A DNA stretch of 64,000 nucleotides from Tilletiopsis washingtonensis (Eukaryota; Basidiomycota; Exobasidiomycetes; Entylomatales), in contig NW_020312002.1 of assembly GCF_003144115.1 (NCBI RefSeq), positions 701,907-765,906 on the forward strand. The letters run 5' to 3'. The notes beneath the pieces are model-generated. The model worked only from the letters and a program-made list of their open reading frames with translations, was not told the DNA's origin and did no database searches. Every line of letters begins with the position of its first letter. Position 1 is the first letter of the stretch. A program made the position numbers and the translations under genes. Positions 54,584 to 58,054 of the stretch are shown here, piece after piece.

Positions 54584-57500
54584 ATGTCCTACGGCTACGG
54601 CGGCGGCGGCGGCGGCTACGGCGGCGCCTCGGGCGGGTGAGTGGCCGCGGCTCCTCTTCCCTTCTGCCATCGCAACCGCGTGCAGTGCGCTGCGCCCCTC
54701 TTGCGCTTTCCCTTCTTCGCTTCCCTCTTGCGGCGTGTCGCTTGTTCTTCCGCCTCTGCTCTGTTCATGTCGAGGCCTGCGCTCTGACGAGTATGCTCCC
54801 CACCCTCTCATTCCCATCTCGCATCTCCTCTCCGCGCATCAACTGCATCATCCCTCGTCGATGTCGCTCCGAACCCGCTCTTCGCTCTCCGCACGTACAT
54901 CTCTGCGACCACCTCTCTCCGCTCGCGCGCACCGATGGCTGACCCCACAGCTACGGCTACTCTGGCGGCTACAGCGGCGGCTACGGCGGCGGCGGCGCGG
55001 GCGGCTACGGCGGCGGAGCCGGCGGCTACGGTGGCGGTGGCTACGGCGGCGGTGAGTGTTGTGCCTGTGCTCGCATGCCAGCGTCGTGCCTGTGCTCATC
55101 CCTTCTCATTCCTTTTGCAGGCGCCGGTGGCTACGGCGGCGGCGGCTACGGCGGCGGCGCGGGCGGCGGCTTCGGCGGCGGCGACCGCATGGGCGCGCTC
55201 GGTGCCGGTCTGAACAAGATCGACTGGACTGCCGGCACGCTCTCGCACTTCGAGAAGAACTTCTACGTGTGAGTCGCGGCAGCGTGTGTGTGTGTGTGTG
55301 TGCGTGCCTCACAATCCTGCTGACGCACACATTTCGCAGCGAGGACAAGCGCGTGACGGCGCGCTCGGACCGCGAGGTGCAGGAGTTCCGCACGGCCAAG
55401 CAGATGTCGATCCAGGGCCAGAACATCCCCAAGCCGGTGCAGTCGTTCGACGAGGCCGGCTTCCCCGACTACATCATGTCCGAGATCCGCAAGATGGGCT
55501 TCACCGAGCCGTCGGCCATCCAGGCGCAGGCGTGGCCCGTGGCGCTGCAGGGCCGCGACATTGTCGCCATCGCCGAGACGGGCTCCGGCAAGACGATCGG
55601 CTTTGCCCTGCCCGCCATGGTGCACATCAACGCGTGCGTGCACAGATGCGCTTAGGCGACTTGCTCTGCCGCCGCTCTGCTGACACTCCCTTTCCCCTTC
55701 CCACAGTCAGGCGCTGCTCGCGCCCGGCGACGGCCCGATTGCGCTGATTCTCGCGCCGACGCGCGAGCTGGCCGTGCAGATCCAGCAGGAGTGCGCGCGC
55801 TTCGGCGGCTCGTCGCGCATCCGCAACTGCGCCGTGTACGGCGGCGTGCCCAAGGGCCCGCAGATCCGCGACCTGCAGCGCGGCGCCGAGATTGTCATTG
55901 CGACGCCCGGCCGGCTGATCGACATGCTCGAGGCGGGCAAGCTGAACCTGCGCCGCGTCACCTACCTCGTCATGGACGAGGCGGACCGCATGCTCGACAT
56001 GGGCTTCGAGCCGCAGATCCGCAAGATTCTCAGCCAGATCCGCCCCGACAAGCAGACGTGCATGTTCTCCGCCACGTGGCCCAAGGAGGTGCAGCGTCTC
56101 GCCAACGACTTCCTCAACAACTTCATCCAGGTCAACATCGGCTCCATCGAGCTCGCGGCCAACCACAACGTCAAGCAGGTCATCGAGGTGTGCACCGACT
56201 TTGAGAAGCGCGGCCGTCTCATCAAGCACCTCGACCACATTTCGCAGGAGAATGCAAAGGTGCTCATCTTCACCGGCACGAAGCGCGTCGCCGACGACCT
56301 CACAAAGTACCTGCGCCAAGACGGCTGGCCCGCGCTCGCCATCCACGGCGACAAGCAGCAGCAGGAGCGCGACTGGGTGCTCGCCGAGTTCAAGAGCGGC
56401 CGCAGCCCCATCATGGTCGCCACGGCAGTCGCAAGTCGCGGTCTCGGTACGTAGCTGCTCCGCCTCCTCTCCCTCTTCCTCTTTCTCCTTCGTCGCCTCC
56501 CCCTCTTTGGCTTCGTTTTTGGTTGTGCTCGAGAGCGAGACAGAGTCCTACGCGCAGAGCTTGCTGGCGCCTTCCCCCGAGGCGTCGAGCAAGCCGGGAG
56601 GTGAGTAAGGTCTAGGCCACGAGCGCCGGCCGCTGCTGCTCGTCGCAGCAGCTGCCTGCGCTCCCCGCACAAGTGGCAGCGCGCCCGTCTCTTGCCAGTG
56701 CGCCGACCTTTCGCGCACGCGCAAGAGACACTGCGCTCTGCCCCATGTGCGTACGCCGCCAGCAGCCGATTGGCGCCACGGTCGTTCGCAACGAGCGCCG
56801 TGGGCCCGCCGATCGCCGACTGCGCCTAGATCTTACTCTTCCACAAGCGGAAGCAACGCGCGGGTGCACCCACCACCACCAGGCGAGATTCAGTCGCCTC
56901 ACGGCGACATCTCGTTGCATCGTGGTCCGCCCGCGCCAGAGCGCCCCTTTCCTCCCTTCTGGCGCGTCGTGGGCAACGCCGGCCGGCAGAGCTCCTTCAC
57001 GAAGGTGCATCTGCCTGCCCTCCGCCTGCGACGCGCCAAGCGATCGCGCACACGCTTGCCCATCCCTCTCGGATTGGCAGCGTGTCGCGCTCGCTCGCGC
57101 ATGCGCGTCTGTCTAACGCAATCTGCCCATCCACCAGGCTCGCACGCCGACCTTTGCGTGCGGGCCTCGTCGCTGGCTCTCTCCTCCCTCTCGCACATCC
57201 AAAAAGAAGCAGGGCGGGGTGTCTCCCTCGCAAGGCGCAGCTGTCGCATGTCCGCTCGGCCCCTGTGGGGTGCTTCGAGGACTTGTGCAGCTGCGCCGTG
57301 CGCGATGCCTCGCCCTCTCTCTTTCCCCCCCACTCCCTCTCTCTCCCTTCTCGTTGCCTCTGGCCCGGCTGCTCACCATCTGCCCCTTTTCTCCCCTTCT
57401 CCCTCATCTCTCTGCTCGACGATTGCATTTGCCACCTCCTCGCAATGCAATCGTTGTTGCACCTCTTCGCCGCCGCGCCTCGCGTCCGATTCGCCGTCGT

Positions 57501-58054
57501 CCACGCTCGCTCGCCGTCGCCTCTCCATCTCCGCCGCGCCTGTGCTACTGATCTCTCTCCCTAACAGACGTCAAGGACATCGGCTACGGTGAGTGTCTCT
57601 CTTGGCTCTTCCACGCCTCCAACCACTCACGCTGCCTCTCTCGCGCGCCCCACAGTTCTGAACTACGACTTCCCGACGAACACGGAGGACTACGTGCACC
57701 AGATTGGCCGCACGGGCCGCGCCGGCGCGAAGGGCACCGCCATCACCTTCTTCACGACCAACGACGCCAAGTCGGCGCGCGATCTCGTCGGCATTCTGCG
57801 CGAGGCCAAGCAGGAGATTCCTCGTGAGTTGGCACACACCACGGAGACGGAAGCTTCCCCCGGGCAGGCTGGCTGACGCAGAGATGTGATTGATCACAGC
57901 GGAGGTGGAGGAGATGGCCTCGTACGGCGGCCGTGGCGGCGGCGGACGCGGCGGCGGCTTCCGCGGCGGCCGTGGTGGCGGAGGTGGCCGTGGCGGCTAC
58001 GGCGGCAGTGGCGCCAACGCATACGGTGGCGGCGGCGGCGGTGGTCGCTGGTAA
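54584..58054 (+). CDS. DBP2: DEAD-box ATP-dependent RNA helicase Dbp2/p68 (8 exons)
   Basis: Nuclear RNA helicase in ribosome biogenesis, mRNP assembly and transcript quality control. Exons 54584-54636, 54951-55051, 55121-55268, 55340-55633, 55707-56446, 57568-57588, 57656-57823 and 57900-58054 give 559 residues. An N-terminal Gly/Tyr-rich region precedes the helicase core: Q motif ([14 protein letters not shown]), AETGSGKT (K185), [13 protein letters not shown] (289-292), [15 protein letters not shown] and [10 protein letters not shown]. The C-terminus is RGG-rich ([15 protein letters not shown]). Intron 5 (56447-57567) is 1121 nt, far above the window norm, and exon 6 is 21 nt. Intron 1 is 314 nt. 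Retention of intron 5 gives a stop within three codons and removes motif VI. Confidence 0.96.
56447..57567 (+). promoter_or_regulatory. Long, probably autoregulatory intron 5 of DBP2
   Basis: A 1121-nt intron (GTACGT donor, CTAACAG acceptor) splits the motif V codons (ASRGL/DVKDI). Yeast DBP2 genes and mammalian p68 are known to share a conserved intron in the C-terminal half, and yeast Dbp2 acts on its own intron to limit expression. Here the donor GTACGT is unlike the GTGAGT/GTGCGT used elsewhere. An internal GTGAGTAAG donor at 56601 could define a cassette of about 65-67 nt (from 56534 or 56536) that would shift the frame. No snoRNA boxes were recognised. Confidence 0.65.

Follow-up and report, generated by a model that had tools for sequence, protein, structure and literature searches.

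A long intron of a fungal DBP2/DDX5-type helicase gene with a predicted stable fold, and its possible part in self-limitation of the helicase

The helicase gene and its long intron

In Tilletiopsis washingtonensis, a gene for a DBP2/DDX5-type helicase lies at positions 54584–58054 on the plus strand of the window, the 64-kb stretch of DNA analysed here (C5:701907–765906 in a genome of 18.7 Mb). Its eight exons give 1680 nt of spliced sequence, open throughout, for a protein of 559 amino acids and a stop codon. A very long intron sits in the second half of the coding region. This intron is predicted to take up a strikingly stable fold that hides a wrong splice site, which suggests that the helicase might unwind its own intron and in this way sense and restrict how much of it is made.

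The translated protein has its best match among solved structures in DBP2 (PDB 8ark, 711 bits, E 1.1e-212, query residues 42–553). The runners-up are DDX17 (6uv0, 581 bits) and then, after a marked fall, DDX46 (389 bits). The DBP2 structure is presumably that of budding yeast and the DDX17 structure that of human. The distance between the 711 bits of DBP2 and the 389 bits of DDX46 bears out the DBP2 identity proposed in the initial annotation and, judged on its protein sequence, the gene is one for a DBP2/DDX5-type DEAD-box helicase. A glycine-rich N-tail and an RGG-bearing C-tail are present, and such tails are typical of DBP2/DDX5 helicases. In the structure alignment, the stretch that we take to be motif V reads TAVASRGLD here, TDVAARGID in DBP2, and TDVASRGLD in DDX17. 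The stretch taken to be motif VI reads HQIGRTGR here, HRIGRTGR in DBP2, and HRIGRTAR in DDX17.

The seven introns of the gene are, in gene order, 314, 69, 71, 73, 1121, 67, and 76 nt long. The exceptional length claimed for the fifth holds within the gene (1121 nt against 67–314 nt), yet the claim is qualified by the one sister intron of 314 nt. The long intron breaks codon 446 of 559, that of the aspartate in SRGLD of motif V, after its first base. In the alignment, D446 is paired with residue 425 of the DBP2 chain 8ark_A. The yeast DBP2 intron may break its gene near codon 424–425. The exon behind the long intron had been described as 21 nt coding only for DVKDIGY, and the spliced translation agrees. 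This exon has phase 1-1, so the reading frame would be preserved if it were skipped.

No other copy of the long intron was found in its own genome, where the locus matches only itself in a search that skips simple repeats. An origin by transposon or repeat insertion is therefore rejected. The DBP2 protein has at least 42 matches in the same genome, all of these match counts being lower bounds, and two of them are the gene itself. Twenty of the other 40 span query residues 240–255 in one frame, the intron junction being at query residue 247, and 18 of those 20 are free of stops. Two further matches belong to one gene interrupted at 251/252 by 57 nt. The last 18 do not reach the junction; one of them stops at 241, with no continuation among the matches listed. 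As 20 of the 40 read through the junction, the long intron is not general to the DEAD genes of this genome.

A candidate branch site, CTGAT, is present at 57548–57552 (+). Near the 3' end, CTGAC is present in four of the gene's six other introns; the two remaining ones have only CTCAT and only CTCAC, respectively. An AG-free, pyrimidine-rich zone (57291–57565, +) takes up 275 nt before the 3' splice site, the next-longest gap being 166, and would allow a distant branch point. No longer stretch without AG occurs on either strand of the window, a result that is statistically weak (0.017, mononucleotide shuffles). A scan of the long intron for seven poly(A)-like motifs found none of them, and premature polyadenylation at such motifs is therefore rejected.

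Predicted folding of the intron

The sense strand of the whole intron has a minimum free energy (MFE) of −529.6 kcal/mol, against a mean of −414.0 (standard deviation 7.8) and a best value of −432.5 for 100 dinucleotide shuffles. This corresponds to a z of −14.8; that of the antisense strand is −7.8. When shuffling was confined to blocks of 60 or 150 nt, which keeps local composition (60 shuffles each), z was −14.5 and −12.3 for sense and −8.3 and −10.2 for antisense. A scan of 2130 overlapping 120-nt segments on both strands of the window, with 25 shuffles each, placed eight of the ten most extreme segments in the long intron. Folding energies of 400-nt segments were regressed on composition (R2 0.90, ten intron segments excluded from the fit) over a background of 2518 segments from 264 kb, made up of the window and 20 hand-chosen 10-kb stretches on contigs C1–C11. 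The three lowest residuals of the 2518 (−7.1, −6.3, and −5.5) are all from the sense strand of the long intron. Sense lies below antisense at all five 400-nt intron positions, the first and last of which extend into the flanks by 46 and 33 nt.

The initial annotation had suggested that the long intron is kept by selection, and this is supported by a folding energy beyond that of the shuffles and of the sampled genomic background. This predicted energy and the many separate helices are most simply read as the outcome of selection on RNA structure, with which the strand bias, though not uniform, is broadly in line. The structure could instead be a functionless by-product of local inverted duplications or of composition, given that the antisense strand too folds beyond its shuffles (z −7.8 to −10.2) and that there is a second unexplained structured stretch in the sampled genome, L032. 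This is very improbable, however, since z is still −12 to −15 when local composition is preserved, the helices are many and separate rather than one palindrome, the sense strand is the lower at five of five 400-nt positions, and the genome holds no second copy of the intron.

The MFE structure of the isolated intron consists of 31 helices of 5–15 bp, 26 of them with a pair probability of at least 0.9 (Table 1). Sixteen helices were re-tested with 60-nt flanks on both sides at four energy settings (Turner 2004 at 37 and 25 °C, Andronescu 2007, and Langdon 2018). Fourteen stay at 0.90–1.00, and the closing helix of the first domain is at 0.75–0.86. A zipper helix of 5 bp between the 5' splice site and the branch site (56451–56455/57544–57548) has a probability of 0.87 in the isolated intron and 0.00 with flanks at all four settings, and is rejected.

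Table 1. Features of the helicase gene and predicted elements of its long intron, in window positions (p, pair probability).
Feature	Position	Strand	Remarks
Exons 1–3	54584–54636, 54951–55051, 55121–55268	+	spliced translation
Exon 4	55340–55633	+	spliced translation
Exon 5	55707–56446	+	ends one base into codon D446, motif V (ASRGL/D)
Long intron	56447–57567	+	1121 nt, GT..AG, phase 1, donor GTACGT, acceptor CCTAACAG
Pyrimidine-rich tract after donor	56456–56508	+	unpaired in MFE structure of isolated intron
Structured domain 1 (predicted)	56510–57210	+	closed by two long-range helices
Domain 1 closing helix	56516–56522/57199–57205	+	p 0.87; 0.75–0.86 over four settings
Domain 1 second long-range helix	56531–56535/57188–57192	+	p 0.97; 0.90–0.99 over four settings
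Cryptic donor GTGAGTAAG	56601–56609	+	GTGAGT, best-supported donor hexamer of genome
Donor-burying 15-bp helix	56603–56617/56824–56838	+	p 0.98–1.00
Hairpin, outer helix 15 bp	56960–57038	+	p 0.99; 0.95–0.99 over four settings
Structured domain 2 (predicted)	57211–57316	+	13-bp and 10-bp helices, p 0.99 and 1.00
13-bp hairpin within AG-free zone	57417–57456	+	p 0.92; 0.90–0.92 over four settings
Exon 6	57568–57588	+	21 nt, symmetric, codes DVKDIGY
Exons 7–8	57656–57823, 57900–58054	+	spliced translation

No Rfam family is found in the window at gathering score, and the long intron as a known RNA family is therefore rejected. At E values up to 5, positions 54500–58400 have one chance-level match, on the minus strand (E 4.8, 17 bits against a gathering score of 100). 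A compact predicted domain of several hundred nt between mostly unstructured tracts would suit an independent non-coding RNA gene that is hosted by the intron, processed out, and has a function of its own. The lack of a match at gathering score speaks against this, although families outside Rfam are possible, and the chance of such a gene is slim.

The hairpins might also give rise to small RNAs, as intron-hosted precursors of Dicer/Argonaute products, in the way that miR-3064 is reported to be located in intron 11 of human DDX5 (PMC4807562). Matches to Piwi, RNase III, and RdRP domains are found in the genome (C11:403711–404523, C18:466199–467134, C17:241029–241328, and C8:686747–688743), which from these sequences appears to keep RNA interference genes. 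The predicted fold, however, is branched, with many helices of 5–15 bp rather than one long duplex, and there is no second copy of the intron in the genome. Small-RNA production is accordingly a long shot.

Other structured stretches were also seen. The next most structured in the 264 kb is at positions 2801–3800 of L032 (C6:152801–153800), on both strands, with a regression z to −4.7. It contains a 53-nt inverted repeat of 72%, and no gene was recognised there from a list of open frames alone. The strongest single 120-nt segment of the window (40621–40740, z −6.5) overlaps the apparent end of an intron and an exon of another gene. Upstream of the helicase gene, a GC-rich segment (54301–54420) has a stable predicted fold on its minus strand (z −5.2). 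Positions 6801–7200 of L041 also fold well (regression z −3.9) and adjoin an open frame on the minus strand (5972–6538), whose product resembles translation elongation factor 1-beta.

Donor sites and early stops

Donor hexamers were assessed in the 264 kb of genome by the presence of a CTRAC..YAG pattern 30–120 nt downstream. GTGAGT has this pattern in 78 of 226 cases (0.345) and GTGCGT in 47 of 283. For GTACGT it is present in 7 of 80 (0.087), near the rate of the control hexamers (276 of 4928, 0.056). The counts for GTAAGT (3 of 10) and GTTAGT (2 of 3) are too small for ranking. From these rates, the authentic donor GTACGT looks poor and the internal GTGAGTAAG good. Both had been claimed from the outset, the former as an atypical donor and the latter, at 56601, as a strong one, and the preference for GTGAGT in this genome sample fits.

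If the intron is retained, or exon 5 extended, the reading frame runs into TAG at 56452–56454 and ends with ASRGLGT, which confirms the expected stop at once upon retention. A frame-shifting cassette of 65–67 nt ending at 56600 had also been proposed and did not hold up. The first YTNAY branch-site match lies at 56832, leaving none from 56447 to 56600, and the donor of the cassette is buried in the predicted 15-bp helix. A cassette exon without a recognisable upstream branch site is rejected, and 56601 is therefore likelier to be used as an alternative 5' splice site. As a donor for exon 5 it needs no new branch site and gives the same early stop as retention.

The cost of opening the predicted structure is 13.9–16.5 kcal/mol at the cryptic donor and 2.1–4.3 kcal/mol at the authentic one, over the four energy settings. 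Positions 56596–56601 pair in a helix adjoining the 15-bp helix. The fold may serve splicing itself, without feedback from Dbp2, by shortening the effective distance between the intron ends and barring U1 from cryptic donors. The folded core fills most of the length from donor to branch site, as this would have it, and in Saccharomyces cerevisiae structures are reported to be enriched around cryptic sites and depleted at real ones (PMC12350175). A mere splicing aid leaves unexplained the persistent length of the intron, five of its six sisters being 67–76 nt, and the long, regulatory DBP2 introns reported in yeasts. It is rather unlikely as the whole explanation.

Proposed self-regulation by the helicase, and related introns

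Long regulatory introns have been published for the DBP2 genes of both yeasts. Intron 2 of Schizosaccharomyces pombe dbp2 is reported to lower the mRNA and to be conserved, in both position and length, in S. cerevisiae and higher eukaryotes (PMC4695336). The S. cerevisiae DBP2 intron is described as 1 kb long and autoregulatory, with poly(A) sites reported inside it (PMC4191890). These statements on position, length, and lowered expression sustain the initial annotation's proposal of a long, conserved regulatory DBP2/DDX5 intron (PMC4695336, PMC4191890). A long intron in DBP2 is therefore already known, and what appears to be new here is the prediction that it is a structured RNA. Among the literature matches listed, no title or abstract opening mentions structure in an intron of DBP2 or DDX5; such structure may be described in Barta and Iggo 1995, Iggo 1991, and Moore 2011. 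DBP2 is not named in the main texts of two papers on S. cerevisiae intron structure (PMC12350175 and PMC4937481), and a fungal covariation screen is reported as limited to Ascomycota genomes (PMC8216456).

The reading preferred here, held tentatively and at a little under an even chance, is that the long intron is the local version of the conserved regulatory DBP2/DDX5 intron and acts as a structured autoregulatory RNA remodelled by Dbp2. Behind the weak authentic donor and the pyrimidine tract, about 800 nt would be folded as two stable domains. With the domains folded, the cryptic donor at 56601 would be buried and the ends of the intron drawn nearer to each other, so that the authentic donor would be used and productive mRNA made. 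Excess Dbp2 would bind and unwind the folded domain, upon which the authentic donor would fail or the cryptic donor be exposed. Either retention or use of the cryptic donor would lead to a stop at the third codon (G, T, stop), upstream of motif VI, and the output of Dbp2 would drop. Formation of the fold in cells and the action of Dbp2 upon it are both inferred. For the direction of the feedback, S. cerevisiae serves as the model, since intron retention is reported to be relieved there by a helicase-dead dbp2 mutant (PMC4695336). Since the product is a helicase with intron-regulated yeast orthologs, and since the helicase-dead mutant relieves retention, remodelling of the fold by Dbp2 with a loss of productive splicing is the likeliest use of the structure. 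A change of splicing through the unwinding of a stem-loop is within the reach of the DDX5 family, as human p68 is reported to unwind the IDX-rasISS1 stem-loop and to cut the inclusion of IDX in H-Ras (PMC2491553).

Several points weigh against this self-regulatory role. The fold is predicted from a single sequence: fungal relatives, needed for covariation, were sought in viral-contig and genome-contig collections and none was found, the only match being to a bacterial DEAD helicase (36% identical). The T of the cryptic GT, at 56602, is bulged out and unpaired. Between 16 and 22% of all 9-mers in the long intron are equally buried, and masking of the donor is therefore unremarkable taken alone. 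The helix between the 5' splice site and the branch site is lost once flanks are included. The strand bias is uneven, as 150-nt blocks give an antisense z of −10.2 against −12.3 for sense and, among the 17 120-nt positions wholly inside the intron, sense is lower at 11 and antisense at five, with one tie. Elsewhere in the genome, L032 reaches a regression z of −4.7 with no known role. Human Ddx5 is reported to suppress Ddx17 and endogenous Ddx5 in a manner that needs ATP binding, not hydrolysis or helicase activity, and that is ascribed to nonsense-mediated decay (PMC3763533). This independence of ATP hydrolysis speaks against feedback via unwinding. Zipper-stem variants of yeast RPL28 are reported to have reduced the retained fraction, so not all intron stems aid splicing (PMC12350175).

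The intron of S. cerevisiae DBP2 is like the one described here in being in the same gene, about 1 kb long, and autoregulatory. It differs in its reported poly(A) sites, where none of seven poly(A)-like motifs is present here, and in that no structured core was found described for it, the original papers apart, whereas one is predicted here. Intron 2 of S. pombe dbp2 is also in the same gene, with position and length described as conserved, and lowers expression. It promotes decay and acts, at least in part, through recruitment of Mmi1, while the intron here is distinguished by its predicted folding. Intron 11 of human DDX5, taken as the homologous intron from the title of Moore et al. 2011 and from PMC4695336, is in an ortholog and has a miRNA hairpin inside (PMC4807562). 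It is of similar length if a 1236-nt long 5'-tailed mirtron is the same intron (PMC4807562). The human intron has one reported miRNA, in contrast to several hundred nt of branched predicted fold here. Yeast RPL7B and other ribosomal-protein introns are reported to be alike in that the gene product feeds back on splicing and the intron structure matters (PMC12311795), but that product is a ribosomal protein and not a helicase. In the case of p68/DDX5 and H-Ras IDX-rasISS1, a DDX5 helicase is likewise reported to alter splicing by unwinding a pre-mRNA stem-loop; the target there is the RNA of another gene, in human cells.

A wider and decidedly more speculative proposal, which we think unlikely, is that the intron is a sensor of helicase activity, in which unfolding by the gene's own product makes splicing give up the weak authentic donor, either for the buried strong one or in favour of retention. 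Yeasts and animals may have inherited their long DBP2/DDX5 introns from one ancient device that persists in structure and position but not in sequence, and the human miR-3064 hairpin may be what is left of it. The intron described here offers a concrete predicted fold that would be a helicase-type substrate; it buries a strong donor, and both wrong choices run into an early stop. This predicted fold would make the question of how Dbp2 is sensed addressable by base-pair mutations.

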